The translations under genes were made by a program, and so were the position numbers. From Antedon bifida (lineage: Eukaryota > Echinodermata > Crinoidea > Comatulida > Antedonidae): a stretch of DNA of 64,000 bases. The notes below the pieces were generated by a model, which was not told the DNA's origin, made no database searches, and saw only the letters and a program-made list of their open reading frames with translations. Positions 27,301-48,257 of the stretch are shown here, one piece after another (positions within the stretch are counted from its first letter, which is position 1; every line of letters begins with the position of its first letter). The stretch lies in contig OY727096.1 in assembly GCA_963402885.1 (NCBI GenBank), positions 10,645,820 to 10,709,819 on the forward strand. The letters run 5' to 3'.

Positions 27301-30300
27301 ACAGGGAGACGATAATAACGCGACATTTACTCAGTCAATATCATCGTACTCGAGGACATATACTATATACGATCCTCGCACGTATTTACATAGGCTATGT
27401 AATATAATAATATATACTATTTTCTCTTTCTTTAATATATATATATTATATATATATAAATCCAAAGGCAAATTACTGAAAAAATGACAATGCTGTGGGT
27501 ATCAGTGGCTGGATCTCAATGGAGATACAAAAAAAAAGCGAAAAGCTAAATCAAAACGATAAAGTAAACAGCCAGAAAAGTTAGCAGAGCTTTCGGGCAA
27601 CACTAGCCCTTCATCAGTGCAAGTGAGCGAATTTGGATAAAGTCATAGCATATGAGTTGGCAAGTGCTGCCTGGGTGGACAGGAATAAAAGAAATATAAC
27701 AATAGAAACAGCGTGTTGAATAGTGGGTGGAGACTGAATAAGAGTAGAAAACAAAGAAGGTAGCTTGGTAGAGATATAAACAATTTTGGAATGGAAAGGC
27801 TAGCCCTTCATCAGTGCAAGTGAAGGAATTTGGATAACGTCAAAGGATAAGAGCTGGAAAGTGCTGCCTGGGTATGCAGTTGTCCTAACCATTAGACCAC
27901 TGGGGCTTTTATGATATTGTTCAAACTCGTTTTTTTAATTAATTAATAAACACAACAGGCAAAGAACATTAATTTCAAACCGCCCGGTGATACACTGAAA
28001 TTTTTTTTAAATAATTAATTTGAAACGATAAAGATGAGGAAATCTGTGAGAATGAGAAAAAGTCGCCCCAACCGAGACTCGAACTCGGACCGTCTGCTTG
28101 ATATGCAGTTGTCCTAACCATTAGACCACTGGGGCTTTCATAGTATTGTTCAAATTCGATTGGATAGCGACTCTTTAACATTCTCGGCGTGGTACGGCGG
28201 AACAGCACTAGTCCTCAATTGTACGCACGCGCACCCAAGATCAAATTGATACACCCTCATCTATTCAGTATTTTTATTCACGAAGCGGGATCTCCGAAGA
28301 GATACTTTTATATATAAAAACACAACAGGCAAAGAACATTAATTTCAAACCGCCCGGTGATACACTGACATTTTTTTAAATTAATTAATTTGAAACGATA
28401 AAGATGAGGAAATCTGTGAGAATGAGAAAAAGTCGCCCCAACCGAGACTCGAACTCGGACCGTCTGCTTGATATGCAGTTGTCCTAACCATTAGACCACT
28501 GGGGCTTTTATGGTATTGGTCAAACTCGATTGGATAGCGACTCTTTAACATTCTCGGCGTGGTACGGTGGAACAGCACTAGTCCTCAATTGTACGCACGC
28601 GCACCAGAGATCAAATTGATACACCCTCATCTATTCAGTATTTTTATTCACGAAGCGGGATCTCCGAAGAGATACTTTTATATATATAAACACAACAGGC
28701 AAAGAACATTAATTTCAAACCGCCCGGTGATACACTGAATTTTTTTTTAAATAATTAATTTGAAACGATAAAGATGAGGAAATCTGTGAGAATGAGAAAA
28801 AGTCGCCCCAACCGAGACTCGAACGCGGACCGTCTGCTTGATATGCAGTTGTCCTAACCATTAGACCACTTGGGCTTTCATAGTATTGTTCAAATTCGAT
28901 TGGATAACGACTCTTTAACATTCTCGGCGTGGTACGGCGGAACAGCACTAGTCCTCAATTGTACGCACGCGCACCCTAGATCACATTGATACACCCTCAT
29001 CTATTCAGTATTTTTATTCACGAAGCGGGATCTCCGAAGAGATACTTTTATATATAAAAACACAACAGGCAAAGAACATTAATTCCAAACCGCCCGGTGA
29101 TACACTGACATTTTTTTTTATTAATTAATTTGAAACGATAAAGATGAGGAAATCTGTGAGAATGAGAAAAAGTCGCCCCAACCGAGACTCGAACTCGGAC
29201 TGTCTGCTTGATATGCAGTTTTCCTAACCGCTGGGGCTTTTATGGTATTGGTCAAACTCGATTGGATAGCGACTCTTTAACATTCTCGGCGTGGTACGGT
29301 GGAACAGCACTAGTCCTCAATTGTACGCACGCGCACCAGAGATCAAATTGATACACCCTCATCTATTCAGTATTTTTATTCACGAAGCGGGATCTCCGAA
29401 GAGATACTTATATATATATAAACACAACAGGCCAAGAACATTAATTCCAAGCCGCCCGGTGATACACTGCAATTTTTTTTAATTAATTAATTTGAAACGA
29501 TAAAGATGAGGAAATCTGTGAGAATGAGAAAAAGTCGCCCCAACCAAGACTCGAACTCGGACCGTCTGCTTGATATGCAGTTGTCCTAAAAATTAGACCA
29601 CTGGGGCTTTCATGGTATTGTTCAAACTCGATTGGATAACGACTCTTTAACATTCTCGGCGTGGTACGGCGGAACAGCACTAGACCAGAACAGAATTATT
29701 AGGTAAATTTTGAATTTGGTTAATTTTGCGGATAAAGTCCGTGGAGTCCTGAATGTATATGAAGGGAGATCAGTCACATATGGTCTAAGTAAATCATCCA
29801 CATATTCAGAAATTTTCTCTGTAGCAGTGCCATTGCCCGAAATAATGGGTCTACCAGGATTGCCAGCTTTGTGGATTTTAGGTAGGAAATAAAGTCTACC
29901 TGGAACTGGATTGACCTGTGCCAAATGAGGACCAATCTCAGGATCGATGGAGTGTTTTTTTGACCATCACAGAAACAGATTCATTCTTCATAAAAGTTGA
30001 TGTCCATAGCAACAGTGGCAGAACCTTTGTCAGCGGTTTTAATGATGATATCATTACGCTGACGCAATTTGGCAATGGCCTGCCTCTTTTGTTTTGAGAG
30101 ATTGTCACGTTTATCTGGACTCGGGACGTAGTTTTGTACATCCTCCTCAATAGCCTAAATAAATGTTTCTAAAGCTGGACAACGATTTTTAGGTGGATTC
30201 CAGGAACTTTTTGGTTTAAATTTGTTAGCGTTGCCTTCGTTTTGCGTGGTGCTGCTGTCTGAATAAGCAAAATGTTCACGTAATCGTAATCTTCTGGAGA

Positions 30301-33300
30301 AAGACTCCATATCCAAAGATAGTTGTTGTGCGCCGAAATTTTTTCTCTCCTTCGGAAAGTCGACAATTAATTTCAACAACTGAATCAGAGGTGTTGCTCC
30401 GATTCTTGGTATAAGTCCGTACGAACCTTCTGCAGGGTTTCTTAAAAGCCTGCTGACTTTAATTGTTCATTCTAATAAAACATAGATTAATTATAAATTA
30501 GATTAAAAGAAACATTTGTGTGGATGGAGGTCAAATAAGAATAAGAACTTTAAGGCTGACCCCTATTTCAAACATTATTATACATACATTATTATTATTA
30601 TTATTAAAATTATAAATATGTGATAAAATGGATAATAAAAAAGTAGAAAAAAGTTTTACAAAAAAAATTCATAAATAAATAAACAGAGTAGTATTCGGAT
30701 AGGCCTATGGGATAAAAGCAAATATGCATATGGAAATATGTAAAATCATGGCACATAGGCCTAATAACAATAACAATATTCTAGAACAAAACCGAATAAA
30801 ACGTTGTTTAACTTCGGCGATCTAATGAGAACCGGTATTTCAACGCAGTTTCGCCTCCGTTATCAAACGCAGTATGGCTACACTGAGCATAAACTAGACT
30901 AAACGAAGACTAAATGAATCAGAATGTATATACAGTACCTGATAGTCATTTAGCTAATTTTGAGATGACGCATCTTAGCTTATTATGTGCCCGATTTTGT
31001 TTGAAATAGTATTATGTTGTTGCTCAAACAATCTTCTTTCCAACAGGTTACCAACATTATTGTTTTGATGACGTCAATCACGTCTACAAATTTGATTAAC
31101 TTTTGTCGCGTAATTTTACCTACTGTACATCGTAATTTGAACGTCTTAAAGCTCTTCAGAATTAAAAGTGATAAAAAAATAGAAAATCAGGTGGCACAGA
31201 TGAAATGACAACAGAACTTTAAAAAATGAAACAGATGTTACAATAACATGGCTTGAAGAATAATTTATTATCCTATGACAAAAGGAAGAAGTTCGAAAAA
31301 GATATAAACAAGGCCTAATCATTAAGATTCCTAGGAAATTTGAGAAGAATAGCATTGAATTCTGTACCGAGTCAAGTGTTTGGTAGGATCATCATAGATA
31401 TAATTTACAAGGAAATGAACAGGAAACTCGGAGATGAACCAGCCGGATTCAGAAAAGCAGGAAAGAGTAAAATTTCACTCTTCTATGGAAAGCCAAACCC
31501 ACCAAAAATACATAATACATACCATCCAGCAATAATTCATTCGTACAAAATTCACACCATCCAATCGTATTCAATGCAGTTCAATAAAAACTTAAATAAT
31601 TCACCTAAATCTACACCACCTACAGACCTGGAAAATCAATGAACATGATAACTAAAATCTTGATACATTTTTATTCAAGTGTCTACGACGGATTCTTAAA
31701 ATAAGATGGCAATATGTTCACTCGAATATATAATTATCCTAACGAAAATCTAATACATTTAAAAACAACAAAATGAAAAGAATAAGCGAAGAGACCAAAA
31801 TCAAAAGATGAAAATGGATTGCCATGAGACTAAAAAACAATAGTCAGTGTTAGCAAGTATGACATGAATACCAGAAAGATGAAGGACATAGGCCTAGAAC
31901 GAAGCAAAACAAATCGCCGCCGATAGAACCAACTGGAAAATTGACACTACAGCATTATGGGCCACGAGGCCCGAAGAGGTTAGGTAAGCATGTTTTTAAG
32001 CTATTATTATTTCATGCAAATATTGTTTCTACCGGATGTTGTGATGTTGTCTTGGCCATTTGAATAAAACTATAGATCTTTTTAATCGCTTTTGTCAAAT
32101 TAATACGTCAACATTTTGATGACGTCACAAACAACAATTAGAACATAATATCTGGGTCCTGTAATTTCACTTATGTTTCACTGTATATTGTATAATGCAG
32201 AATAATATACACAACTTGCGTTTGAAAATACAAATAGGCATATGGAATTATTAGGATAACATAGGCCTACGCTTACAAATTTTAATTATTAGGATATATC
32301 TTATCCTAATAATAATTAATCCTAATAAGTGCTGACATGAATAGAAATTCAAAATTTAGAATAACACCGAATGTGAAAGTACAATGTATTAATAGCGACA
32401 CTGAAACGAGAATTATTTATTTATTTTGGTACATATAAAAACCATACCAAACAGCAGCACTGTTTTAATTACTCATTAAAACTATAATTCCATCTTTTGA
32501 TTTTGAAAACATCATAATGAAACTAACCAAATAGATACGTTCGCAGTCTTCGATGATCAAGTCTATCTAATATCAACAAGATATGAACTGAACAGTGCTT
32601 TCATCTAATTTATGACAAATACTAATTAATACTAGTTTTTACAATTATTATTTTTATACATATATATAGCCCTTTTCTATAATAATATTTAATTAAAATA
32701 GTATGCCCTATAAACTTCTTTCAACAACTACAACAGCAACATCAACAGTTATTACGCTATTATTATTTCATGCAAATATTGTGTCTACCGGATGTTGTGT
32801 TGGCCATTTGAATAAAATTATAGATTTTTTTAATCGCTTTTGTCAAATTAACACGTCAACATTTTGATGACGTCACAAACAACAATTACAAAATAATATG
32901 TTTGTTTCTGTAATTTCACTTATGTTTTACTGTATATTGTATAATGCAGTATAATATACAAAACTTGCGTTTGAAAATACAAATAGGCATATGGAATTAT
33001 TAGGATAACATACACTTACAAATTTAAACGTGTAAGTGTATGTTATCCTAATAATAATAATAATTAATCCTAATAAGTGCTGACATGAATAGAAATTCCA
33101 AATTTAGAATAACACCGAATGTGAAAGTATAATGTACTTAATAGCGATACTGAAACGAGATTTTTTTTATTTTTTTCGGTATATATAAAAAACATACAAA
33201 ACAGCAGCACTGTTTTTAAATCATTAAAACTATAATTCTATTTTTTTATTTTGAAAACATCATAATGAAACTAACCAAATAGATACGTTCGCAGTTTTCG

Positions 33301-34077
33301 ATGATCAAGTCTATTTAAATTTCAATAAAATATGAACTGAACAGTGCTTTAATATATTTATTATTAATAATTATTTTTATCTTTATGATAATACTAATTA
33401 ATACTAGATTTTACCATTATTATTTTTATACATAATATAGCCCTTTTCTATAATAATATTTAATTAAAATAGTATGCCCTTCTTTCAACAACAGCAACAA
33501 CAACAACAACAACAATAATAATAATTTGTTTCTATTCACAAACACACATTAATATTATATGTTACCTGCATCATATATTGATCCTCTTGGTGATCTGTAT
33601 CTCCATTTACCATTTTCTGGATAAATCATATAGCAATTTGAACCTGAACAATCAAAATCACTAAAGCACCGATACAAAAAAAGGAAAGATAAGATAATTG
33701 ATTCGTTCGTTCATCCGTACATCCATCATTGGTCATTACTATCAATGTCATCGTCGTAAATGTAGCTTAAAACATAACAGAAGTTCCATGATATACTTAT
33801 TATGTTACGGTTACTTATTACAAAAAGAAATCTTTTACAACCAGCAAAAAGATATCAGGAACCCAACAATTAAAAAGTAATTTGGAAAAAGAAGAAATGT
33901 AATAGTTTAAATTTTGAGAAATTAAGGGGAATGGGGGTTAATAATTACTCTTAACTAAATAATAAAGTAGGCGTAAATTGAAAAAAATAACATTTGTACT
34001 TACATGGGACATTGTGTTCCAACTAACGCCATCTGCACCCAAAGAAGAGGTAGGCAAAGATTGGTAAATTGCTGCAT
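24346..34077 (-). CDS. C-type-lectin-like single-pass receptor, five exons
   Basis: Exons, 5' to 3': 34004..34077, 33566..33660, 25395..25745, 24652..24921, 24346..24491; all borders are AG/GT and all phases agree, giving 936 nt and 311 aa. Residues 1-22 form a signal peptide. Residues about 30-173 are a C-type-lectin-like domain: NCYMIYP, NCYAFMEMDKK, CEHIGGNVTVINSIDEYKQF and a final GCLTT...IICE. The Ca-binding EPN/QPD and WND motifs are absent, so sugar binding by the classic mode is unlikely. NVT and NYT are glycosylation sequons. Residues about 220-248 are a membrane helix. The 63-residue tail has YSQV (282-285) and YTEV (307-310), which would suit SH2-domain docking when phosphorylated, although the -2 residues do not fit a strict ITIM. 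The 7.8-kb second intron is packed with mobile DNA. A surface recognition or immune-type receptor is inferred; the ligand is unknown. Confidence 0.85.
25935..26200 (+). mobile_element. gag-like fossil of a Ty3/Gypsy-type element
   Basis: A short, broken capsid-like segment in the lectin gene intron, recognisable by its spacing of aromatic and GK-A-R-A-A-Y-type residues. It is old and fragmentary; no terminal repeats or pol were found nearby. A SCAN-like domain relic is an alternative. Confidence 0.4.
26738..26850. repeat. short inverted repeat, MITE-like
   Basis: GACATCCCCGAGGGAATGAT with ATTTTGCTCGAG on the left pairs imperfectly with CTCGAGAGCAAAATATCCCG and ATGGGATGTC on the right, arms of about 30 bp. 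The loop is GC-rich (CGCCTCAACTGGCGCTTCGG). Confidence 0.6.
27584..27620 (-). ncRNA. hammerhead-ribozyme-like motif in PLE 3' region
   Basis: On the minus strand GCA precedes CTGATGA, then stem II GGGC/GCCC with loop TAGTGTT, then GAAA, then GCTC followed by TGC. GCA and TGC pair as stem I, the predicted cut follows GCTC, and the very short self-complementary AGCT suits stem III formation between two copies. One extra A follows CTGATGA. PLEs are known to carry such minimal hammerheads near their ends. Confidence 0.6.
27873..29690 (-). repeat. tandem array of about 370-bp units with tRNA-like sequence, minus orientation
   Basis: Five tRNA-like segments (28065..28135, 28435..28505, 28805..28875, 29175..29237, 29537..29607) and a truncated one (27873..27906) spaced by about 370 bp. 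Each unit also has the CACCGGGCGGT-type word, ATTAATTAATT and GGAGATCCCGCTTCG, as in the plus array. The tRNA-like part has a GTTCGAGTC B box and a CCGAG/CTCGG T stem in most copies. The fourth copy has an internal deletion. Open frames across these units are repeat translations, not genes. Confidence 0.9.
30466..31329. other. no gene; old repeat debris
   Basis: AT-rich intron sequence of the lectin gene; 30828..30850 resembles 2075..2105. No supported coding block. Confidence 0.4.
31330..31985 (+). mobile_element. decayed LINE with internal deletion
   Basis: About 31361..31460 reads PSQVFGRIIIDIIYKEMNR followed by DEPAGFRKAGKS, the fingers region of non-LTR reverse transcriptases (usual form EQAGFRKGRS). 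After a gap, 31685..31980 gives CLRRILKIRWQYV, then KWIAMRLK, and near the end GPRGPKR/ATRPEEV-like codons, as in the C-terminal part of such elements. The catalytic block is deleted and frames are broken. Intronic to the lectin gene. Confidence 0.65.
32000..33510. repeat. tandem duplication, period about 756 bp
   Basis: 32000..32755 and 32756..about 33510 are alike over their whole length (both start GCTATTATTATTTCATGCAA and pass through AATGAAACTAACCAAATAGA). They differ by scattered substitutions and small indels. Copy 2 contains a 25-bp perfect inverted repeat (32996..33020 and 33031..33055); copy 1 has a shorter hairpin in the same place. It lies just downstream of lectin exon 2, in its intron. 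Confidence 0.85.
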
Positions 34078-34302
34078 AATTACTGATTATGTCTACCGTT
34101 TGTTATGTTTATTTCTTTACAAATTAACGACCGTATCATTTACTCCTGTTCGCTTATGAAAAAATATAAGACATTGGCCTATGTTATATTAATAAAAAGT
34201 CGAGGAAATGATATCGAAAAATATCATTAACAATTTTGATTGGTTTACTCAAAAGCTGTTCCTTAATTGGCTGTAAGCTGACATTATGATTAGCTATTTG
34301 TA
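34078..34302. promoter_or_regulatory. region directly upstream of the lectin gene start
   Basis: The promoter of the minus-strand lectin gene should lie here; I see no convincing TATA or initiator. Listed by position only. Confidence 0.2.
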
Positions 34303-34440
34303 TATAAATGATGCTTAATTCTGACATAGGCGAGCACAATGGAAAAACACCGGGACAAATCTCCGCCTTGGATACATACCTCAGATGTACCGCGAAACGT
34401 AGATGTAATAGCATTAGTTCTCACTGTTACCATTTTAATT
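34303..34440 (+). mobile_element. Helitron-like element, fragment E
   Basis: TTAATTCTGACATAGGCGAG, ACAATGGAAAAAC, CGCCTTGGATAC and ATGTACCGCGAAACGTAGAT follow the 5' part of copies A and D. About 138 bp survive. Confidence 0.65.
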
Positions 34441-34619
34441 TTATTGGAGTAGTGCGCCATCCATATTGTGCTGTCCATAATAGAGGATTTTGTAAGGTGT
34501 CAATCAAACTAATTGCAAGAAAAAGGTTTTTTGATGAAATGTCTTCTTTAGACCCTACTGAACACATTTATCAACGTTAGGACATTTTTCGACAACAGGA
34601 GGTAGCCTAATTTTCATAA

Positions 34620-35110
34620 TTAAAAATGTCGGTCATTTTTAATAACGTACTCTGTATCTTGGAAACCGCTAGTCACAGATACTTAATTATGGTGTCAAAA
34701 TCGTTAGAAATATTATGTTTTTATATTCACTTTAATGAAAAAGTTTTTACAAAATTGAATAGAAGTGCTATTATTTATTATTGTTATTATTGCTAACATC
34801 ATTGACCTTTGACCTTGATTTATCATATCTTAGCAACCACTAATCTGAGAGACACACATATGGCTCAAAATGTTTAGAAACTACACATTTATATTTAGTC
34901 TAATGGCATGTTTTTGCAACAAATGGCCGATTCTAACATTATTGACCTTTGAACTTTACACTACTTAAAATCGCATAACTTTGAAAATATTGTACATTGT
35001 CGAATTGTTCAGAACATACATGTTTCTATAGATTCTAATGACACATTTTGTCCAATAATGGCCTACCGGAATGGTTATTAACATTTGAACTATATTTGAA
35101 AAGGATATAA
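34620..35110. repeat. old, diverged tandem units with TTGACCTTTGA words
   Basis: Three to four units of about 120-190 bp, each with a CATTGACCTTTGA-like word, a TCATATCTTAGCAACC or ATCGCATAACTTTG phrase and an ACACATATGG/ACATACATG phrase. They are highly diverged. Similar wording appears near 5060 and 12820..12960. Confidence 0.5.
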
Positions 35111-35714
35111 ACCCGGAATCTTCTTCATGTAGGCATTCATTAGAACATGTGATTTGGCACTACTTGTTTAGACTATGGTGGTAAAGGGCATTTAACAGTT
35201 GTTTTAATTTAGTTACTGAAAATATTCACTTTTTTTTTTAATATTAGACTATGTATACATACAGTATAGGTTTGGATTATTATTAAAGATGTATTGTCCC
35301 CCGAAACATGAAAAATGAAGATCAATAAAATCAAATTTTGAATAGACCATTTTGTAGTTATAATAAAGTTGTTCACTTTCGCCGAAAAAAAATCCGAAAA
35401 AAATTATTAATTTCGCTTAGGAAAAACAAAATAAGTTAATCAATTTTCCCAACTTGTCAGCTCAAAAATTAGGCCGATAGAGCTAACTCATAAATATGCA
35501 TGATATGTCAATGAGCATCGACACAGCTGAGATCTGATCTAACAAACATGGACGATGCACACTTTGTGTACACCAGAGATTGACGCGACTCCCCTGATCG
35601 TATAAAGCTGAGTTGTTAATTTGTCGGTAAATAGGCCTAGACGGTTATTTTAAATATAATAATTATACTGTATATATAACGCAAACTAGACAGACGTTTG
35701 TAATAACAGGAAGG

Positions 35715-36352
35715 TTAAAGACCCCTTCCCTGCAATTTATGACGTTTTTTGGAAAATAATACATATATATCACTTTAAAAACATTAAACCATGTCATTCC
35801 TTGTCTTAAATGTACGTTTTATGGTAAATTATGATAAAAAGTGAGAAACAATGCACTACCTAAGTAGCTCGCGGCGATCGACCTCTCGTGGACGGTCTTA
35901 GGCCTAGCCTAGCTAGGCTTAGTTTTGTAGGCCTAGCTGGTAAACATCGGTAACATACGAACATCGTACGCTAGCTATATACCTAGCTTGACGTTGTATA
36001 GTTGCTGTATTAATTGTCTTTCTATTTTTGCCAGACTCCGTTGATACAAATTGGGGAAAACCCGGTATTTTCGCTGAAAAGTTAGGAGTCTTCCATTTGT
36101 TTTGGCCTCACGATCGATCGAAAAGTGGGCGAATTACAGGTGAAAAACAAAAATATCAATCCGCGCGCAATGCATTTTGGGATTTATAGCGGGCTGCTAT
36201 AATTATTAGAATCGACTTATTTTTCACATTTTTAACCGTTTAAAGACGAAAAAAGTTATCGCAATAGGACCATATAGTATTATTTTTACATTAAATATAG
36301 TTTGTGATCTTAAATTATATCTAAAAAACGTAGGGAAGGGGGCTTTAATTAA
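35715..36352. mobile_element. non-autonomous TTAA-type DNA transposon
   Basis: The left end TTAAAGACCCCTTCCCT and the reverse complement of the right end (TTAAAGCCCCCTTCCCT) match except at one base, each beginning with TTAA. This fits piggyBac- or Kolobok-like elements that duplicate TTAA. The 0.64-kb interior has no coding capacity but has unusual GC-rich patches (GGCCTAGCCTAGCTAGGC near 35902; CGCGCGCAATGCATTTTGGG near 36163). Confidence 0.6.
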
Positions 36353-37734
36353 TTAACTTAGCCTGGGATTTTTTCATGGCTAGACCTAGAATAATACATG
36401 CATAGGCCTAGACTAGTAGTAGTAGAACAGGCAAACTGGTGGGACAATCGGGTCCCTGCAGAAGATTCCCAGCTAGGCCCTATGCATTGTAGTCGTCATA
36501 GACTGGCCTAGGCTAGGCCATCAATCCGAAAATACAGCCAGCCTGCTGTACCATATATGTACATAATTTACAGTTGAAGCTTGTTTAACTAGTTTTTATG
36601 ATAAAAATAAAACAAACATTTTTCAGGGAAAATGGTTACAATACAATTACAAGCCTGAAGTTGAGAACCTTCCAGCAGCACTGTACAAGTAGACAGAGGG
36701 GAAAAGCCAGCTTAGCCATTTTACAACACAAACAAATGTTCTTCACTATGTTACTCTGTACTGTAAGTCAAATATTTGTTTTCTCTTTTTTAAGTGGTAA
36801 TGTGTTTTACCATAGAAAGTTAGTGTACTTATTTGACTATGTCAAAGCAAGCAATTTAATTAGCCCACATTTTGCACTAAATGTGCATGATCTATTTTTA
36901 AATACCAAATTCCAGTTTTTCGTACTTTGCCGAAATTAAAAAGTTTAGATTTTTAGATTATATTTCATTGTTTTAAAAAATTTATTTAAAGACGTTGAGT
37001 TGATGAAGACTGGGACGTACTTCATAAAGACAACTAATGATAGACTCGGTATTGGAATATGATTGGATATTGCAAGAAAAATATGTGTGATGCTGCATTC
37101 GGCCAATATGTTCCTGTCCAGCTTGTAAAATGTTGTTGTATAATTTTCTTTATTATAAAGCAATAATATTTGTACAGTATATTATTTTGTACACATAACA
37201 TTCAATAAATAAAAAATACTACTGCAACAGTACACATGATAAATTTACTTATAATTCATAATTTTACTGTAAATATTACAGTGCAAAAGGAGTTAATAAC
37301 AAATATATATACAGTATATCTTATTGAATTCCTGTATTTTTTTTGTGTCAATTTGTCTACTAATATCAGTGTGTTGATTGTGGAAGTAATTACGGCAGCT
37401 ATAGTCTTCTAAAATCGCTCATATCCATTACAAAGTGTCATTTTAATAGTAAGAAATGTTTCAATAAATTGTGAATGTTGCCACTGTGCGATACATTTTG
37501 CGTTTCTCACTACTTCTTCACTTGCTGTTATTGTTCAATCAATGTTAATACCTCAAAAGAAAGAAGAAATTTGTGTCAAAATATCTGCATAAAATGGTTA
37601 ATTGTGCGAATGTTGATTTGAACTTATTGTATTTGATGCAGAAGGTTTAATAAAATATTTTAAAATACTGTACAGTAAACATCCAAAACAATATTTAGAT
37701 TTATTTTGGTAATTTTCTCTGCAGAATAGATAGT
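36353..37734. other. no firmly supported gene
   Basis: Open frame 36598..36939 has no recognised domain. A block opening after ATTTTTCAG (36626) and closing before GTAAGT (about 36764) has exon-like borders, but no protein signature supports it. The rest is AT-rich. Confidence 0.3.
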
Positions 37735-37960
37735 TGAAAGTATTGTGTAAAAACAAAGAAGATAGCTTGGTAGATAGAAAACATTTTGGAATAAAACTAA
37801 AAACAGCTTATATATATATATATATTTATCAGAGCCAAGCACCTGAAGATTGAGTTCATACTCATGAAACATCCTGTAGTGCAATAAAATGTTCAGTTGG
37901 TAATTTACTAGCGTCTTTATTATTTATTTATATTTGGCTCTACATTTTGTATCGAGCACT
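37735..37960. mobile_element. PLE-related end fragments, two orientations
   Basis: About 37745..37800 is the reverse complement of PLE 3' sequence (CCAAGCTA(C/T)CTTCTTTGTTTT). It is followed by a TA run and then by a plus-strand segment with a hammerhead-like motif and a CAATAAAATGTTCAG tail that belongs to a different PLE or retrozyme-like family. Confidence 0.5.
37839..37882 (+). ncRNA. hammerhead ribozyme candidate, well-formed
   Basis: GCAC, then CTGAAGA (fits CUGANGA), then stem II TGAGT/ACTCA with loop TCAT flanked by U residues, then GAAA, then stem III ACA/TGT around TCC, then cleavage site GTA, then GTGC. GCAC and GTGC give stem I. All core positions of the hammerhead are present in the right order within 44 nt. 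Activity is inferred. Confidence 0.65.
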
Positions 37961-38994
37961 TTCGCTTTCATGATCTGCGTTAAATTTACCATCTAGGTCG
38001 TGCCCACAGATGGTTCTCGAATACATAGTAATTTCAGCGTAAAAAAACTGGCGATTTCAAATGTACGTACCGCATGACTATAAAACATTGTCGTTTACAG
38101 AAACAAATAAATAGATACAATGATTTATGTAGTCAACCAAAATTATCACCCTGCGAATTACTTCCAAAAGAGAAACTTGTCACAAAATGAGTCCAAATGT
38201 TTGATTTGAACTCATCTAAACAAACCCAATTTGTGTTTTGTATCTAACATTAGGGTTTAGGGTTGGGGATGAGGATAGATACAAAGAGGAACAATTTTGA
38301 AATATATTCTTTATATTAAATTATTCTTTATATTTCTTTATTATCCACTCAGTAACGAAATATTTTTTTATAGGCCTATAAATAATAAACCACTAAATAG
38401 AGTAAACATTTCCGATTTAATAACTTTGTTAAAATTGTCATAGTCGATTGAAAGTACGTAACGATACACCACCACGACGTTTATATTTTTTTGTAATTAT
38501 TAATTAATACAAACGTTGAGAAGCAACTGTCAGTAATAAAGTATTATATTATTATGTGTTTATAATCTAAAGGTAGGGGCTACCCACACCCACAGTAATA
38601 TTTTTTTAAAGAAAATTTGCCTGTCTTCAACATTATGATACTGTACTCGAGCTGTTCAACCCGTGTTCAGCCATTAAAAACAATTATCGTAGGATGAGAT
38701 AGGAAAATGCGAATCATCCTCGTATTATTGTATGCGGGTATTTTTCAAGATGGACATGCATTAGACAGTGTATACCACAATCGGGCAATTCGTTTCAATT
38801 GTCAATAACTAATTATCTAACTCAATTTAATTGGTAAACAGGGTTACATCAGATGGTTAAAATCAGTATCGAAAGTACGGACCAACTTCATATACCATCG
38901 AGTAAACATTCTAGAAATAACGCGCGATTTACCGAATTTTGCCCTTACGTAAATTTATATGTAGATACATACATACATATATATACATATATAT
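37961..38994. other. no recognisable feature
   Basis: AT-rich, with a short palindromic AATTATTAATTAAT patch and TA-rich sequence from 38960; no coding block. Confidence 0.4.
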
Positions 38995-39213
38995 AAAGTC
39001 GCCCCGGTTGGGGCGACTTTTTCTCATTCTCACAGATTTCCTCATCTTTATCGTTTCAAATTAATTAATTAAATGTCAGTATATCACCGGGCGGTTTAGA
39101 ATTAATGTTATTTGCCTCTTGTATATATATATATAGTATAGTGCTGTTCCGCCGTACCACGCCGAGAATGTTAAAGAGTCGTTATCCAATCGAGTTCGAA
39201 CAATACCATGAAA

Positions 39214-39284
39214 GCCCCAGTGGTCTAATGGTTAGGACATCTGCATATCAAGCAGGCGGTCCGAGTTCGAGTCTCGGTTGGGGC
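39214..39284 (+). tRNA. tRNA-like sequence in array unit 1
   Basis: 71 nt fold as a tRNA: acceptor GCCCCAG/TTGGGGC, D arm GTCT..GGAC, anticodon arm TCTGC/GCAGG with loop ATATCAA (anticodon ATC), T arm CCGAG/CTCGG with loop TTCGAGT. The body looks like tRNA-Glu/Asp, but ATC is an abnormal anticodon. No intron. Probably a pol III promoter within a repeat; a working tRNA is unlikely but not excluded. Confidence 0.4.
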
Positions 39285-39577
39285 GACTTTTTCTAATTCT
39301 CACAGATTTCCTCATCTTTATCGTTTCAAATTAATTAATTAAATTTCAGTATATCACCGGGCGGTTTAGAATTAATGTTCTTTGCCTCTTGTGTTTATAT
39401 ATATAAAAGTATCTCTTCGGAGATCCCGCCTCGTGAATAAAAATACTGAAAGATGAGGGCGTATCAATTTGATCTCTGTTGCGCGTGCGTACAATTGAGG
39501 ACTAGTGCTGTTCCGCCGTACCACGCCGAGAATGTTAAAGAGTCGTTATCCAATCGAGTTCGAACAATACCATGAAA

Positions 39578-39648
39578 GCCCCAGTGGTCTAATGGTTAGG
39601 ACATCTGCATATCAAGCAGGCGGTCCGAGTTCGAGTCTCGGTTGGGGC
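39578..39648 (+). tRNA. tRNA-like sequence in array unit 2
   Basis: Identical to the copy at 39214 over all stems and the ATC loop. The third copy (39942..40012) has lost acceptor pairing and has a changed T stem. Confidence 0.4.
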
Positions 39649-40117
39649 GACTTTTTCTCATTCTCACAGATTTCCTCATCTTTATCGTTTCAAATTAATT
39701 AATTAAATTTCAGTATATCACCGGGCGGTTTAGAATTAATGTTCTTTGCCTCTTGTGTTTATATATATAAAAGTATCTCTTCGGAGATCCCGCCTCGTGA
39801 ATAAAAATACTGAAAGATGAGGGCGTATCAATTTGATCTCTGTTGCGCGTGCGTACAACTGAGGACTAGTGCTGTTCCGCCGTACCACGCCGAGAATGTT
39901 AAAGAGTCGTTATCCAATCGAGTTCGAACAATACCATGAAAACACCAGTGGTCTAATGGTTAGGACATCTGCATATCAAGCAGGCGGTCCTAGTTCGAGT
40001 CTCGGTTGGGGCGACTTTTTCTCATCACAGATTTCCTCATCTTTATCGTTTCAAATTAATTAATTAAATTTCAGTATATCACCGGGCGGTTTAGAACTAA
40101 TGTTCTTTGCCTCTTGT

Positions 40118-40120
<3 letters not shown>

Positions 40121-40174
<54 letters not shown>
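40121..40174. repeat. TA microsatellite
   Basis: About 27 uninterrupted TA dinucleotides between the tRNA-like array and the PLE 5' repeat. Confidence 0.95.
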
Positions 40175-40178
<4 letters not shown>

Positions 40179-40250
40179 ATATATATAGAATAGTAAGAGC
40201 TTAAGATAGTTAAGACAATAAACAAAATATCTAAGATAGGTATGTATTTG

Positions 40251-40372
40251 ATCGTTTTGATTTAGTTTTCGCTTTTTTTTTTTGTATCTCTATTGAGATC
40301 CAGCCACTGATACCCACAGCATTATCATTTTTTTCAGTAATTTGCCTTTGGATTTATATATATATATATATA
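40251..40372 (+). repeat. PLE terminal direct repeat, 5' copy
   Basis: ATCGTTTTGATTTAGTTTTC through ATCCAGCCACTGATACCCAC to CTTTGGATTTATA(TA)n, nearly the same as 47615..47740. Repeats of this kind (pseudo-LTRs) are usual for PLEs that insert as tandem or circular-derived copies. Confidence 0.85.
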
Positions 40373-40375
40373 ATT

Positions 40376-42790
40376 ATGGAGGGTACTTTGGATAACTTTA
40401 CCAAATTACGTCGCCTGTCCGAGAAACGTGTCAGGTATCGTCACAATTTACATACTTTTCTTTTACATCGTTCTAAACATTCGGCCCCCAAAGGACAATT
40501 TTATGTCACATCTGGTATTCGATTTGCAGATGATGACATGCGTTCTGGTTGGAACGCTGTCCTTCACAAAAATGCTTGTCTACTCAATGAGATCCAAATT
40601 GGCAATTGCCGCATAATCCTCACTGAGTTTGACGTTGAAATTCACTCTAGAACTAAGAAGTTGAAAAGAGAACTTCCTGCATCCGAGTTTCAAAACAAAC
40701 TCAGGATTATCGCCAATGATTGCTGTAAGCAATCAACGGCAATGGCCCGAAGGGGACATCACAAATTTGGTCTACCTGCAGACTTGGTCATTTCAACACA
40801 AATGACTCTACCTTCGGATGATTTTAGGGCTTTTAGAAAACCCTGCAGAAGGTTCGTTCGGACTTATAACAAGAATCGGAGCAACACCTCTGATTCAGTT
40901 GTTGAAATTAATTGCCGACTTTCCGAAGGAGAGAAAAAACTTCTTTCCCGAGGACTTAAATTCTGCCCAAAACCAAGGCAGGTCGGCGCACAACAACTAT
41001 CTTTGGATATGGAGTCTTTCTCCAGAAGATTACGATTACGTGAACATTTTGCTGATTCAGACAGCAGCACCACGCAAACCGAAGGCAACGCTAACAAATT
41101 TAAACCAAAAAGTTCCTGGAATCCACCTAAAAATCGTTGTCCAGCTTTAGAAACATTTATTCAGGCTATTGAGGAGGATGTACAAAACTACGTCCCGAGT
41201 CCAGATAAACGTGACAATCTCTCAAAACAAGAGAGGCAGGCCATTGCCAAATTGCATCAGCGTAATGATATTATCATTAAACCCGCTGATAAAGGTTCTG
41301 CCACTGTAATTTGCCATGGACATCACATTTTATGAAGAGGAGTCCTTAAGACAGCTAAACAATCCTCTTCATTATCGTAAACTTACAACGGATCCCACCC
41401 CGGAAATTGCGGATAAGGTGGCCAAATCTGTTTCTGTGATGGTAAAAAAACACTCCATCGATCCTAAGATTGGACCTCATTTGGCACAGGTCAATCCAGT
41501 TCCAGGCAGATTTTATTTCCTACCTAAAATCCACAAAGCAAGCAATCCTGGTAGACCCATTATTTCGGGCAATGGCACTGCTACAGAGAAAATTTCTGAA
41601 TATGTGGATGATTTACTTAGACCACATGTGACTGATCTCCCTTCATACATTCAGGACTCCACAGACTTTATCCGCAAAATTAACCAAATTCAAAATTTAC
41701 CTAATAATTCTGTTCTGGCTACATTAGATGTTTCATCATTGTATACTAATATCCCTCACGAAGAAGGAGCCGACGCATGTATTTTAAATTACATACAAAT
41801 TCCAGGCAAAACGCCTACTAAAGCTCATTTACGAGAACTGGTCATGTTGATTTTAACCAACAACAATTTTATTTCTGGAAATGACCATTACCTTCAAATT
41901 CATGGCACAACGATGGGCACAAAAATGGCGCCATCTTTTGCAAATTTATTTATAAGACAATTTGAGGCCAATTTTCTGTCCCTCCAACCAACTAAACCAC
42001 TTGTTTGGTTTAGATACATTGACGACATCTTTATGATCTGGACCCATGGTAAAGATAATTTAGAATCTTTTCTTCTCAATAATAATGCAGCCCACCCAAC
42101 TATCAAATTTACAGCTACCAAATCCACTAGTAGCGTTGATTTTTTGGACACTATAGTGACCATAAAAAATGGTACACTCAAAACTGACCTATTCCGTAAA
42201 CCCACGGATAAAAATATGTACCTGCTCCCTAGCAGTTGTCACCCCCGACACTGTACTAAAAACATACCGTACAGTCAAGCATTACGTATCAGACGTATCT
42301 GTTCTTCAGATTTAGATTTTCAGAATCGTACCGAAGAACTAACCGGACATCTCCGGAATAGAAATTACAAGAAGGAATACATCGAAACTGCTATAAAGAA
42401 AGCAAAAGATATTCCTCGATGTCAAACACTGACGTACAAACCACGTCAGCCAAAAAAATCGACCAGAGTGCCATTGGTCATAACCTACCACCCTAGGTTG
42501 CCTCCATTACGGGCTATTATTGAGAAACATATATGCCCATTCTACAGTCCACAGAACGTCTCAGGACTGTTTTTCCGGAACCACCCATTATTGCATTTCG
42601 TAGACCTCCCAACCTTCGTGATATATTAGTCAGATCCAAATTTAAGAGTGAAATTAACTCTCATGACAGCCACAATTTTGGCAGTCACCTTGCGGCAAAT
42701 CTTGCAAAACTTGTTCATTGGTTGATTCTACTGAAAAATTTCAGAGTAACCAAACTGGCCGCATTTTTCGGATAAGACAATCAATTAATT
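40376..42790 (+). CDS. PLE reverse transcriptase region
   Basis: The first part (40376..41335) is the PLE N-terminal region, ending in the conserved IIIKPADKGSATVI. The second (from about 41316) is the RT: FYFLPKIHKASNPGRPIIS, LATLDVSSLYTNIPHEEG (motif A), GTTMGTKMAPSFANLF (motif B), FRYIDDIFMIW (motif C; YIDD catalytic pair at about 42013..42030) and DFLDTIV. It continues to a CGKSC.KTC linker and RIFRIRQSINC just before the insertion. It acts as an RNA-templated DNA polymerase priming on nicked or telomeric DNA. It lies in overlapping frames and is not intact. Confidence 0.85.
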
Positions 42791-45700
42791 GTGACCTGCT
42801 ACCACGAAAGGGCTGTAAAATCGCACCGCGATGTATTGAGAAATTGACCTTTTGAACTAGAATAGGCCGTAATACATATAAATTGTCAAAATGAGTTTTT
42901 GTGTAATAAAGAAAATATAATCATTAATTTTACTATTCCTGAAGTTTGGGTTTGAAATTCCATCGGTAAGTTGTCAAAATTAGTCATTTTCTGAAGGGAT
43001 TCTGTATAAATTGAATAGAAATGTGTAGAAAATGCGACCACAATCGCCGAAAACAAAGCTTCCTTTGGACCGCCATATTTCGCTTGCCTTTGCGATTTAT
43101 GACGTCACTGACTGTTAGTTTGTTGTCTATTATGTTTAAATATCATTTGATTGGTCAGTTTTTGCTTGGATTGGTTTTTTTGTAAGTTTAATCCAATAGA
43201 AAACGTACTTTGTACGGAAAACAATGGTTACTAAGGCCAGAAAACATCAACTTTGATTGGCTTACACCTGTCACGTGTTGAAATAACGATTCCCGATTGG
43301 TCACTCTGACATGCTTCACTTCACTTCGTGTTCCTTGCGCGAGCTAGCGAGCTAACAGCTGGTCACAGACACATGCTTTTATTTCTGTAAAAATAATAAG
43401 ATGGAGGAACCGCTTGATCGTAGACTTAAAAACGTATTAAGTGAAGCTAGAGGCTTGGATCTTAATGATGATGATAATCAGAAATTGTTGGATTTGATTG
43501 ACGAGTATTTTGATGAGAGAACGATGTCGGATAATGAGGAATTGACGGAAGAGGAAAGGGCTGATTATAATGACGATTATGACGAAGAAGGCTTGTTTTC
43601 GGAGGACGACGAAGACAACATTGACGAACCTGATGGGCCTAGGCCTAGGCCAAATGAAGAGAATGATAATGTAGGCCTAGATACTGATGAATCCCAAGAC
43701 GAAAATGCCATGATTGGTGGAGATGATACAATCTTGAGCAACGGAGATCCCGAATTTATGTCCGAGTTTGAAGAAAAGGTAAGTACTACCATTATTTTGA
43801 CCTTCTTTCAAGAAAGGTCGGGGGTGGGCGTGGGGGACCCTGGCTTGGGTCTAGGCCTACAGTAGGTCTACTCATTGTTCTAGGCAGTGGATGCTTAGGG
43901 CCTAGGCCTAATAATAGTATAATAGTCTCAATACGTAGCTTTGTTGGAATGTTGGTTGGTCCCCATTCATTACGTTAAATTCATCCAGAACACACTGTTC
44001 CGTTCTTGTTATTTATACTAACTAATTTATATTTTTTAATAATAGGAAATACAGAACATCAAACACAAAAAATGTCGATGTAAGAACCCACATAATGGCT
44101 TAGGTTGCACTCACAAGTTCTCGGATGAGTACGTCTTTAAGATGCGGTACCAATTAAAGGCATTATCCAGGGAATCGAAGACACTCTTTCTACTTGGAAA
44201 AATCGCTACTTCAGGTGCAACAACTCAGTGCTCCAAGCAGATTAATAAGGATCGCAAGCGGAAAAGAACGGACATGGGCTACTATGTAAATAAGATCAAG
44301 GTGTGCAGAGATGCATTTCTATTTATCCATATGTAAGTAATTTTCAATCAAAACATTCTAAACTATTCTGTTTATGTAACTGTAGCGAGTTTTATTATTT
44401 TTTTCTGATGAATTATTTTCACAGGTTGCAATTATCTTTAACTTGGAATTAATGTATTGTCTTTTTTTGCAGTACCAGTGACAAGTTTCTTACAAAACTT
44501 ACTAGACATTACATGGAAAATGAAATTGAGATCCCTGAATCGTTTTCTGGAGGGGCAAAATATAACACAAGGAGATTTAGCGTTGAAGATAATGAGAGAT
44601 CTGTGACGTTCCATTCAAAGTTTGCGGATGAGAAGGCACTAGTCATACCTGGACGTATACCTGGAATAAAGTACACTGATCCACGAGTTAGGCTGCTTCC
44701 TGCTGTGGAAAACAAAACCTCAGTGTGGCGAAAGTATCGAAAGAGTTTGAATGAACTTAGTGCAGCATCAGGAAGAGGTATAATTTTTAAAGTTTTTATT
44801 ATTTTTATCTTAATGTATACATTGACCGTCTTCTTTATAGGAAACAGTATAAAAATAAATTCTATTCACTTATGCAAATTATATTTTTTCACCAATAGAA
44901 TATCGTGTAATGGGTCGATGGTCGTTTGTGAAGGCTTGGAAGAGATACCGGCCGTTTATTTTGACAACCAAACCTCGTAGTGACATGTGCTGGACATGTT
45001 AGAAGCATAGTCAAAAGATTTACTTGAGTGCTAATTCATCGGATTCCCATAAAGCAGCAATAATTCAAGAACAAGTTGAGCATCTTCGTGTTGTTGACCA
45101 AGAAAGAAAGCTGTATCAGGACGACACAGCAAAAGCTAAAGAGTCCATCAGAGAAATGCCAGATCAACTTGGACCACATCAGCCCTGTTCAAGGAAAGGC
45201 GCCATGCATTACAGCTTTGATTTCGCCCAGCAGGTTGGTACATATTTTTTGTTTCTATTGGGTTTTTTTTCCATTTGCATCCTAGCAGTAAATAACTCGC
45301 CAATTACATTATATTTTTTTTTATTAAATACAATTTTTATTCTATTTTTTCAGCTGTTCTATCCACACGACCCCGAACAGCCTGGACCTGTTTTTTTCTT
45401 AACCGAGAGGAAGTGTGGCGTCTTTGGGATCCACTGTGAGGGATTCTCCAATCAAGTCAATTTTTTGATCGATGAGGGGATGGACGTTGGCAAAGGAGCA
45501 AATGCCGTCATTTCATATCTTCATTATTATTTTGCCCACTACAGTTTAGGTGAAGAAGTTCATTGTGACAACTGTAGTGGACAAAATAAGAATAAGTATG
45601 TAATGTGGTATTTACTCTGGAGGACACTACATGGCCTGCATAAGGAAATCAGGGTACGCTTTTTGGTGGCTGGACACACAAAGTTTGCCCCTGACTGGTG

Positions 45701-46989
45701 CTTTGGTCTGTTTAAACAAAGATATAATGTATGCCACAGTTCATGTTTGAATGATATTGCAGACTCTTGCCGTTCCAGCACCAATGCTGTAGTTAATATT
45801 CCACAGCTTGTTGGAACAGAAGATGGAAAATCCATTGTACCAACGTATAATTGGAAATCATTTTTGGCCGGTTACTTTAAACCAGTAGTTGGGATTAAAT
45901 CCTTTCACCATCTCAGCTTTTCTTCTGATAACCCTGGTGTCGTCACATGCCGAGACTTTGCTGATTCAGAGGAGAAGATTCTAAAACTACTGAAGGTAGA
46001 TGGTGTAGTTCCACCACTGGAACTGCCTCAACCATTCAAACCACCCGGCCTTGCAAATAAACGTCAGTGGTACTTATATAAGAACATTAGGCAGTACTGC
46101 GCACAGGACCATAGAGCTGACGTAACATGTCCTATGCCAGGTGGAGAAGAACCTACTGAAGACGAATAAAGTCTATAAGTGTACCCTGTAAATAAAAGTT
46201 TATGATGAAAATAAATAACAGAGATTGTGCTGTTACGTTTCTATATTTTGTGGAATAATTGTGATTTTTAAAGAGTAATACAGTTGTTGTTTAATCTTCT
46301 GCAATCCGATACCTCTCCTCTATAACCTGCCATCTCCTCTCACACCCACCTTTATCCAGTATATATTCTGCAACCTACATGGGAACATCGGTGAACAGAA
46401 CGTAAAAAAAGTCATAATTTTATGCGACAATGACATCTCTCCAAGTCACTCCCCACCCCCACATAACCCCTCCCCCACATACCCCTCCCCCACCCTGACT
46501 CCCTACCCTAGCTGGTATGTCCTTTTCTACTTGTAGGTTACTAACACTCCCAAATAGGATATTATAGGTTAACACCCAAATAAGATCTTCAAGAAATGAG
46601 CCCTATTATACTTTTATTTTACCAATTTCAAAATGGCCGCTAAATCCCCCGGGGGGGGGGGATTCCTGTAAATTTTGTTGTCCTCATTCCCAAACATCAG
46701 TTGGACAACATATGAAAATTTCATTGCAATAGTCCCATGGGAAGTGGTCGTTGCTAAGGTGTGAATGTAGTCAACTGGTTACATTTTATATTAATTGTAT
46801 GGTGTAACTTTAAAGCTGTTTTACTCAAACGTTAATGAACAGATTTTGATAGTATGATTATTTTTCAAATTAGTATAACTTGGCTTCCAGACATCCGATT
46901 AAAATTATTTAAACACCATTATAAAGCTCATAATGTGTTCTATCATTTTGGCTGTTTAGGACGACAGCCATTTCGTGGTAGCAGGTCAC
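42791..46989 (+). mobile_element. Sola-like cut-and-paste DNA transposon inserted in the PLE
   Basis: Terminal inverted repeats of 26 bp with one mismatch (GTGACCTGCTACCACGAAA then G or T, then GGCTGT) and a 4-bp target duplication AATT (42787..42790 and 46990..46993). Removing it leaves RQSINC followed by LTKNVIYL, an uninterrupted PLE linker, which fixes the insertion point. It carries one five-exon transposase gene. A 4-bp duplication and the DNCSGQNKN-type transposase fit the Sola superfamily as I know it. Confidence 0.8.
43401..46169 (+). CDS. Sola-like transposase (DNCxGQNKN family), one in-frame stop
   Basis: Exons 43401..43778, 44046..44332, 44473..44777, 44899..45233, 45354..46169; borders and phases agree and give 707 codons including the end. 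The N-terminus is very acidic (residues about 20-120). Exon 2 encodes a CRCKNPHNGLGC Cys cluster. The last exon holds the catalytic region: VHCDNCSGQNKNKYV and GHTKFAPDWCFGLFK, whose Asp residues are likely part of the metal-binding triad, and a Pro-rich end. One TAG (45000..45002) interrupts the frame after DMCWTC; the rest is open, so the copy is nearly intact. AATAAA follows at about 46190. The family matches what I recall as DUF7869-type proteins. It cuts and rejoins the element ends. Confidence 0.75.
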
Positions 46990-47310
46990 AATTGTCTAAC
47001 CAAAAACGTCATTTATCTCATATACTGTAATATTTGTGGCAAACAGTACGCCGGAGAAACAAAAAACACTCTCCGTATGAGAATGACACAACATAGATCA
47101 GCTATCAAAACATTAAAGCTTGATCAACCTGTAGCCGAACATTTTAATTTAGCTGGTCACTCGATTGCAAATTTCAGAGTTATTGCAATAGACCACGACG
47201 TCAAATGGAGCGACAAAACTCGCAAAGGCAAAGAAAACCACTGGGAATTACTACTTAAAACCACAAAACCTTTTGGACTTAACATTAGGAACATACTCCC
47301 AGATCGGTAA
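46990..47310 (+). CDS. PLE GIY-YIG endonuclease domain
   Basis: NVIYLIYCNICGKQYAGET is the GIY-YIG-like start (IYL...QYAGET), followed by LRMRMTQHRSAI with the conserved Arg and His, and by KENHWELLLKTTKPFGLN with the metal-binding Glu and the PLE C-terminal NxR. It is the downstream half of the PLE polyprotein, separated from the RT by the transposon. It nicks target DNA to prime reverse transcription. Confidence 0.85.
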   Translation, partial: NCLTKNVIYLIYCNICGKQYAGETKNTLRMRMTQHRSAIKTLKLDQPVAEHFNLAGHSIANFRVIAIDHDVKWSDKTRKGKENHWELLLKTTKPFGLNIRNILPDR

Positions 47311-47554
47311 AATTATTCCGTTGACTACCAAAATTTAAGTTTCAATATTAACCACCATTATAGCCTTTTTTTTATTTTTGTTTTTTTTAAATTGTTTATA
47401 TCTCTACCAAGCTACCTTCTTTGTTTTCTACTCTTATTCAGTCTCCACCCACTATTCAACACGCTGTTTCTATTGTTATATTTCTTTTATTCCTGTCCAC
47501 CCAGGCAGCACTTGCCAACTCATATGCTATGACTTTATCCAAATTCCCTCACTT

Positions 47555-47591
47555 GCACTGATGAAGAGCTAGTGTTGCCCGAAAGCTCTGC
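47555..47591 (+). ncRNA. hammerhead-ribozyme-like motif in PLE 3' UTR
   Basis: GCA, CTGATGA, AGAGCTAGTGTTGCCC, GAAA, GCTC, TGC. Same motif as 27584..27620 on the other strand, but stem II is weaker here (GAGC instead of GGGC against GCCC), so this copy may be inactive. Confidence 0.5.
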
Positions 47592-47614
47592 TAACTTTTC
47601 TGGCTGTTTACTTT

Positions 47615-47740
47615 ATCGTTTTGATTTAGCTTTTCGCTTTTTTTTTTGTATCTCCATTGAGATCCAGCCACTGATACCCACAGCATTGTCATTTTTTCAG
47701 TAATTTGCCTTTGGATTTATATACATGTATATATATATAT
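47615..47740 (+). repeat. PLE terminal direct repeat, 3' copy
   Basis: Matches 40251..40372 with a few substitutions and ends in CTTTGGATTTATA plus a TA run. It also matches (inverted) the end of the minus copy at 27455. Confidence 0.85.
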
Positions 47741-47905
47741 AAACACAGTAGGCAAAGAACATTAATTCTAAACCGCCCGGTGATATACTGAAATTTAATT
47801 AATTAATTTGAAACGATAAAGATGAGGAAATCTGTGAGAATGAGAAAAAGTCGCCCCATGTCATGGTATTGTTCAAACTCGATTGGATAGCGACTCTTTA
47901 ACACT
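47741..47905 (-). repeat. partial array unit in minus orientation, tRNA-like part deleted
   Basis: AACCGCCCGGTGATATACTG, the ATTAATTAATT stretch and AAAAAGTCGCCCC match the minus-strand array, then jump directly to CATGGTATTGTTCAAACTCG, so the tRNA-like segment is missing. The PLE is thus flanked by array sequence in opposite orientations. Confidence 0.8.
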
Positions 47906-48257
47906 TTCGACCATGAAGTGTTAACCTTAAAGTGTGCATGCATGTCTGACAGTATATTGGAAACATCATGTCAAGATATGTTTAATTCGTCAATATATTT
48001 ATGTATTATACATTAGGGATCTTTGCTTTTTTTATAATCTGTCAAAAGTTTATGACATTATGACACTTTGACGATCTGTTTGATGAAAAGATCAGGTTTA
48101 ACGGCGTGCATGATGAATGTTCGATCGCTGACGAAAACAAGCAATTACACATACAGTGATAATATACGTTGCGAGAGTTTCCGAGGATTAAGAATTATTA
48201 GCGACGTTAAACTTTAGTAGATATACATATAAATAATAAGATTTTTTTTATTTGTAG
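47906..48257. other. no recognisable feature
   Basis: No coding block or repeat seen. Confidence 0.4.

Follow-up and report, generated by a model that had tools for sequence, protein, structure and literature searches.

Do the contacts between Penelope-type elements (PLEs) and tandem tRNA-like arrays at this crinoid locus betray one composite element, or have unrelated repeats met here? A preliminary description of the 64,000-nucleotide stretch of Antedon bifida DNA analysed here (the window) had raised the former as a possibility, a composite in which a PLE captured or mobilises a tRNA-derived satellite or targets tRNA-like sequence. The arrays, their tRNA bodies and their abutments are far above chance. 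The contacts look like separate insertions accompanied by DNA capture, not like one new composite element, and we hold it modestly probable that two independent repeat classes met at AT-rich tracts, together with PLE-style capture of flanking DNA.

PLE sequence was found on both strands of the window (Table 1). The plus-strand copy is a Penelope-type element with a reverse transcriptase (RT) domain, recognised by PF00078, which is a general RT model and not specific to PLEs, a C-terminal GIY-YIG endonuclease, and pseudo-LTRs (pLTRs), the same sequence being present at its 5′ and 3′ ends. The hammerhead-like core CTGATGA...GAAA occurs as a motif match at 47558 in this copy and at 27617 in the minus locus, with seven such matches in the window; the pLTR gave no Rfam hammerhead match at E ≤10, and its minimum-energy fold was without a hammerhead. 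Searches with the RT matched a pattern in two stretches of the virus and prokaryote collections, with no confirmed relatives, and recovered no PDB relatives at E ≤0.01. The 364-unit, pLTR and 252-unit patterns found no matches in the viral contig collection, nor did a unit pattern in the prokaryotic/viral genome contig collection; these misses say little because the collections contain viruses and prokaryotes.

Table 1. Features of the PLE and tRNA-like loci, in window positions
Feature	Position	Strand	Remark
Target-site duplication AGAAAATTTCTT, 12 bp, left copy	18898..18909	.	
252-bp tRNA-like array	18910..19885	+	inverted part at 18910-19030, followed by 3.4 direct units
Target-site duplication AGAAAATTTCTT, 12 bp, right copy	19886..19897	.	
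5′-truncated PLE 3′ end	27435..27786	-	4/351 sites differ vs plus copy
81-bp diverged PLE piece at anticodon-loop break	27793..27873	-	11/81 sites differ vs plus pLTR
Minus tRNA-like array	27873..29684	-	4 full units, 265-bp unit, half unit
Minus PLE N-terminal/RT fragment with internal gaps	29685..30450	-	22/733 sites differ vs plus copy
11-bp perfect palindrome, 4-base loop, 5′ edge of plus array	38995..39020	.	
Plus tRNA-like array	39005..40130	+	partial unit, 2 full 364-bp units, partial unit
tRNA bodies of plus array (n=3)	39214-39285, 39578-39649, 39942-40013	+	
TA tract, tail of last plus-array unit	40121..40187	.	
5′ pLTR of plus PLE, 5′-truncated	40245..40375	+	40245-40377 vs 47609-47740, 91.8% match
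N-terminal frame of plus PLE	40376..41335	+	no significant Pfam match
RT frame of plus PLE	41310..42629	+	PF00078 E 1.4e-9
DNA transposon nested in plus PLE	42791..46989	+	19-bp terminal inverted repeats, AATT each side
DUF7869 frame within nested DNA transposon	45003-46169		
GIY-YIG endonuclease end of plus PLE	46993..47310	+	PF01541 E 4.9e-5, exceeds its cut-off
Plus PLE 3′ end with pLTR	47389..47740	+	
Inverted partial 364-family unit without tRNA body	47738..47909	-	TA tract joins unit to plus PLE 3′ end

Tandem-repeat detection recovered a period of 364 at 39139-40130 for the plus array and of 370 at 27948-29683 for the minus locus. ARAGORN and Rfam RF00005 each returned, on the strands originally described, three tRNAs in the plus array and four in the minus array, the tRNA-like bodies scoring up to 57.9 bits with RF00005. 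A box B-like motif is present in all eight units of the 364 family and a box A-like motif in six of the eight, so that by RF00005 and these motifs the units bear the tRNA-like Pol III promoter of a tRNA-derived SINE. Dispersed single-unit SINEs of the 364 or 252 family were not seen in the 64-kb window. A motif search found the hammerhead core in no unit, and Rfam at E ≤5 gave no ribozyme in 39000-39900 and none among the nine matches listed in 18880-19900. The three units reported ahead of the plus PLE correspond to three tRNA bodies, but only two are full units, with two partial ones. Likewise, the five units reported within the minus PLE are borne out as five full-length tRNA bodies, one of them (in unit m2) with an 8-bp gap, although they amount to four full units of 362-370 bp, then one of 265 bp and a 65-bp half unit. 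The palindrome at the edge of the plus array is a tiny head-to-head inversion of a 364-family unit.

The plus PLE meets unit sequence on both sides, each edge lying at a unit TA tract and away from the tRNA; the TA tract that ends the plus array is followed by 57 unassigned bases before the 5′ pLTR. The proposal that the PLE targets tRNA-like sequence is more accurately worded as a position at the unit's TA tract. Equality of strand between tRNA-like units and PLE, also reported, applies to two of three blocks and fails 3′ of the plus PLE because of the inverted unit there. That both arrays share their PLE's strand amounts to two coin tosses, and we attach no particular meaning to it.

At the minus locus, the final unit does break within the anticodon loop, directly after CTGCATA (27873/27872). 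It does not, however, run straight into the 3′ end of the same PLE copy: the adjoining 81-bp piece is 13.6% diverged, against 1.1% for the 3′ end beside it (Fisher P 4e-6), and the two are therefore derived from different PLE copies. The PLE pieces on either side of the array do not join up within a single copy, and the pieces surrounding it represent at least two copies.

Comparison within the window found no junction common to the two 364-bp loci, and the anticodon-loop junction in particular is not shared between them. Since the loci also differ by 2-5%, neither was copied from the other. Candidate duplications are at or near chance for both complexes, for the plus PLE and for the minus array: 5 bp enclose the plus complex, a match equalled by 371 of 500 random pairs, and 5 bp the plus PLE alone (378 of 500); three choices of ends for the minus complex gave 7, 7 and 6 bp (39, 34 and 150 of 800), and the best match flanking the minus array is 3 bases (786 of 800). 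A 9-bp match flanks the plus array (5 of 500 random pairs) and consists of TA, of low complexity. With no common junction, no enclosing duplication above chance, a diverged remnant at the break and a PLE-free 252-bp array nearby, the data do not support one recurrent composite element.

That neighbouring array, on which the preliminary description was silent, is unrelated to the 364-bp arrays, and nothing within 7 kb of it matched any PLE query. Box A-like and box B-like motifs are present in three of its three units. An exact, AT-rich 12-bp duplication abuts it on both sides; 12 bases anywhere in 20-base flanks were reached by only 3 of 3000 random pairs. It is thus, as in retrozymes, a short tandem array with a target-site duplication. 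Its perfect duplication, inverted head and freedom from PLE sequence suggest that such arrays are able to jump alone as one block. Some microRNA families matched the inverted head, below their gathering scores, and we took these as long-hairpin matches.

On the favoured reading, both the 364-bp and the 252-bp units would be tandem repeats of tRNA origin that carry Pol III-type promoter motifs and have spread as short arrays, probably through reverse transcription of a multi-unit RNA. Block insertion, to which the duplication of the 252-bp array attests, may extend to the 364-bp arrays. The plus PLE sits where a unit ends in its (TA)n tail, with the array on one side and an inverted partner unit on the other, and would have landed there beside them. 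The minus array, set among truncated PLE pieces, may be host DNA that a PLE took up between its coding region and its 3′ pLTR, or the product of nested insertions. The earlier suggestion of capture by a PLE is reasonable for the minus locus, with precedent in Penelope elements, which have captured host DNA (for example, the Pen1_Av spacers and Pen3a_Av) and have AT-rich targets (PMC3846280); AT-rich cleavage by a PLE has been reported in vitro (PMC11167929).

The likeness to Pen1_Av and Pen3a_Av (PMC3846280) extends to RT with GIY-YIG, pLTRs, truncated copies, foreign DNA between the coding region and 3′ pLTR, inverted pieces placed head to head, and AT-rich targets, whereas the foreign DNA here is a 1.8-kb tRNA-like array, the PLE pieces come from at least two copies, and there is no significant enclosing duplication. 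Tandem tRNA-like repeats are likewise known: PMC10702118 summarises PolIII/TAN of Cynops (~360 nt) and Rana/polIII (~250 nt), and calls their link to SINEs inconclusive. Compared by description, ours too have a single tRNA-like body in each tandem unit of ~250 or ~360 bp but form short arrays, one with a target-site duplication. They also resemble the SINE-derived satellites of reptiles (PMC10702118) in being tRNA-related tandem sequence, but differ in that no dispersed single-unit SINE of either family was seen in the window. The statement that no PLE of this structure had been described is right in part: the pairing of a PLE with tandem tRNA-like repeats appears in no title or abstract among the matches listed, while each part has been described (PMC3846280, PMC10702118).

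An unlikely alternative is that the units form a PLE-dependent satellite or non-autonomous class. From tRNA-bearing RNA that is multi-unit or circular, PLE RT would make short arrays whose 5′ end is self-primed and head to head and whose duplications are AT-rich; chimeras would arise when the enzyme switched template from PLE RNA to that of the unit. Such jumps would account, too, for the equal strands upstream of the PLE, and the whole would be a tRNA counterpart of retrozymes. Both 364-bp arrays of the window (2/2) adjoin PLE sequence, exceeding random-placement contact, and the 252-bp array is put together in the way reported for Penelope inserts, with an inverted, head-to-head start, direct tandem and flanking AT-rich duplication (PMC3846280); each of these points tells against the favoured reading. 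The latter construction could come from PLE machinery just as well as from a LINE, which would produce the same duplication and inversion. The plus array further carries an 11-bp head-to-head stub, and it has been proposed that PLEs move retrozymes, whose tandem units are of comparable size (PMC7229834, PMC7761336). Metazoan retrozymes resemble our repeats as short dispersed arrays of 150-450-bp units with duplications and with PLEs in the same genome, but the units here have a tRNA-like body and showed no hammerhead core. Moreover, no junction recurs between the two loci, and the plus PLE has an inverted unit on its 3′ side. Derivation of the unit tail from the PLE 3′ end was attractive by eye, the two sharing co-linear short similarities whose chain score was matched in 10 of 1000 shuffles. 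It fell to window-segment controls: 335 of 1352 segments equalled the single best block, and the chain score was equalled by 25 of 2958 segments set against the PLE tail and by 150 of 2960 when the unit tail was used. The 3′ tail that a SINE shares with its partner retroelement is here represented by a weak similarity to the PLE tail.

We consider it distinctly unlikely that other machinery, such as that of a LINE, moved the arrays into or beside PLE copies, leaving the PLE a mere target. An array does split PLE pieces at the minus locus, and the 252-bp array is a block insertion with a 12-bp duplication, but the minus array has no such duplication, the pieces around it are not contiguous in one PLE copy, and at the plus locus it is the PLE, not the array, that lies between two unit pieces.

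DNA rearrangement alone, in which palindromic, hairpin-prone units broke at a fragile anticodon-loop tip and were end-joined to nearby PLE DNA, is improbable. The minus array without a duplication would suit it, as would the two breaks that fall at or within an anticodon loop (27873, and the inverted head at 19030, ambiguous over a 3-base overlap); among 12-16 hand-counted array breakpoints, at least two such hits have a post hoc P of 0.031-0.053. The exact duplication of the 252-bp array nevertheless demands an integration event. Cleaved tRNA halves as the source of these breaks were set aside on the same post hoc count. Misjoining of repeats in the assembly is highly improbable: every junction does lie within repeats, and tandem or inverted PLE structures are reported hard to assemble (PMC3846280), but the loci are 2-5% different with no common junction and the duplication around the 252-bp array is clean.

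Should the contacts be ordinary, the locus illustrates in detail PLEs gathering neighbouring repeats and tRNA-like tandem repeats spreading as blocks. If PLEs truly move the units, these would be tRNA-derived short elements dependent on Penelope and not on a LINE, with a bearing on the agents that move retrozymes and other small tandem elements in animals.

Divergence between the loci is higher for the 364-bp units (17-19 of 364 sites, 4.7-5.2%) than for the PLE parts (26 of 1084, 2.4%), with P 0.013-0.032 over six non-independent unit pairs, a difference that speaks for the favoured reading. The gap persists against the PLE 3′ end (P 0.007 and 0.002) and vanishes against the RT pieces only (22/733; P 0.17 and 0.09, not significant), which counts against the favoured reading. 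The test left out m2, for its 8-bp gap, and the partial units m5, m6, p0 and p3 and the inverted remnant; against p1 and p2, m2 is 93.5% identical to each, and m5 95.4 and 95.8%.

Two of the three tRNA-like tandem arrays in the window belong to one family with units of about 364 bp, and one of them accompanies each Penelope-like element (PLE) locus, here termed plus and minus by strand. Tandem-repeat and tRNA searches placed both on the strands proposed in the preliminary description, whose coordinates were correct. The best tRNA bodies of this family score 57.9 bits against RF00005 and have an ATC anticodon according to ARAGORN; by eye, the body may be nearer to tRNA-Glu. Candidate box B-like motifs and T5 tracts 3' of the tRNA are present in all eight units checked, and candidate box A-like motifs in six of the eight. 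Units of the minus array alternate between two types, with identities of 97.8% (m2 vs m4) and 98.5% (m3 vs m5) against 94.5–96.2% for the remaining full-length pairs. At the 5' edge of the plus array, an 11-bp perfect palindrome forms a tiny head-to-head stub resembling the head of the third, 252-bp array.

Coordinates of the tRNA-like arrays and of the ends of the plus-strand PLE
Feature	Position	Strand	Period or unit length
Unrelated 252-bp tRNA-like array	18910-19885		
tRNA-like array, minus locus	27873-29684	-	units 362-370 bp
tRNA-like array, plus locus	39005-40130	+	period 364
5' pseudo-LTR of plus PLE, 5'-truncated	40245-40375	+	
3' end of plus PLE with pseudo-LTR	47389-47740	+	

Judged by its domains and architecture, the plus element is a PLE: its reverse transcriptase (RT) frame matches PF00078 (E 1.4e-9) and its GIY-YIG end PF01541 (E 4.9e-5), while the N-terminal frame has no significant Pfam match. 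A hammerhead-like core was recognized by motif in the 3' pseudo-LTRs of both loci, with no support from Rfam or the minimum-energy fold. The plus PLE is interrupted by a DNA transposon (42791-46989) that has terminal inverted repeats of 19 bp, encodes DUF7869 in one frame and is bordered by AATT at each end. The kinds of element present make an animal host likely.

The minus array does break within the anticodon loop, at 27873/27872. The PLE piece at this break is 81 bp long and differs from the plus pseudo-LTR at 11 of 81 sites, versus 4 of 351 for the adjoining 352-bp piece (Fisher P 4e-6); the two pieces are different PLE copies. At the plus locus, TA tracts of the 364-bp unit lie at both edges of the PLE, and 57 unassigned bases also separate unit and PLE on the 5' side. 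An inverted unit remnant without the tRNA body (47738-47909) directly follows the PLE via a TA tract, so that units occur on both strands relative to this PLE; the exact 3' joint is obscured because the pseudo-LTR also ends in a TA tract. The suggestion that units and PLE share one orientation thus holds for the array strands and fails at the remnant, and one recurring PLE–array junction type is not supported, with no junction common to both loci in the window.

Had array and PLE moved as one element, equal divergence would be expected. Between the loci, the units differ more (17–19 of 364 sites) than the PLE segments do (26 of 1084; P 0.013–0.032 across six non-independent unit pairs). This is a soft test, given that comparison with only the RT pieces (22 of 733) gave P of 0.17 and 0.09, versus 0.007 and 0.002 with only the PLE 3' end. 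All inferences draw on two PLE loci and three arrays, and no copy turned up when collections of viruses and prokaryotes were scanned by pattern.

The 252-bp array, from another family, has the appearance of a single, complete insertion. It begins with a partial copy in inverted orientation (18910-19030), head-to-head with 3.4 direct units, and a perfect 12-bp duplication, AGAAAATTTCTT, encloses the array and abuts both ends (whole insertion 18898-19897); when random pairs at equal distance were compared over flanks of 20 bases, 3 of 3000 reached a match of 12 bases at any position. PLE queries found no match within 7 kb. Flanked by a duplication with no PLE match nearby, this array indicates that short tRNA-like arrays can insert as blocks without PLE sequence.

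Three observations form the basis of the account we consider most likely: the array at 18.9 kb inserted as a block, the plus PLE has TA tracts at its edges, and the minus locus holds two unequally diverged PLE copies. On this account, which fits known PLE behaviour, a PLE at the plus locus would have settled at a unit's TA tail, and array DNA would have become enclosed among truncated PLE pieces at the minus locus. PLEs are described as favouring simple AT-rich targets and as producing self-primed head-to-head inversions and duplications of 8–10 bp, and Pen1_Av as holding 0.9–1.5 kb of host DNA between coding region and 3' pseudo-LTR (PMC3846280); AT-rich cleavage is reported in vitro (PMC11167929). 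In amphibians, tRNA-like repeats arranged in tandem are described at lengths of about 250 and about 360 nt (PMC10702118), and no title or abstract among the open-access matches listed pairs a PLE with tRNA-like arrays.

A tRNA-bearing element class dependent on PLEs is conceivable, if rather unlikely, because the 252-bp array is built like Penelope inserts, and because PLEs have been proposed to move retrozymes, which are tandem elements with units of comparable size, via circular RNA (PMC7229834, PMC7761336). Both 364-bp arrays in the window also touch PLE sequence. However, a motif scan found no hammerhead core in the units, and a LINE could yield the same structure. Homology between unit tail and PLE tail is likewise unconvincing: its chain score was reached by 10 of 1000 shuffles and, among segments of the window, by 25 of 2958 and by 150 of 2960, and the single best block of similarity was equalled by 335 of 1352 segments.

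Other repeats in the window comprise a perfect palindrome whose 21-base arms flank a single-base loop (12536-12578), an inverted repeat whose 240-base arms are 99% complementary across 408 intervening bases (8204-9091), and two direct copies of ~670 bp each with 87% identity across 681 aligned columns (32040-33500). Direct repeats at ~1.7 kb spacing, several segments of which are 97–100% identical, occupy 59118-63273, and a minisatellite at 63287-63875 has 54- and 85-bp units based on TGTCCAAAATGGGGAAA.
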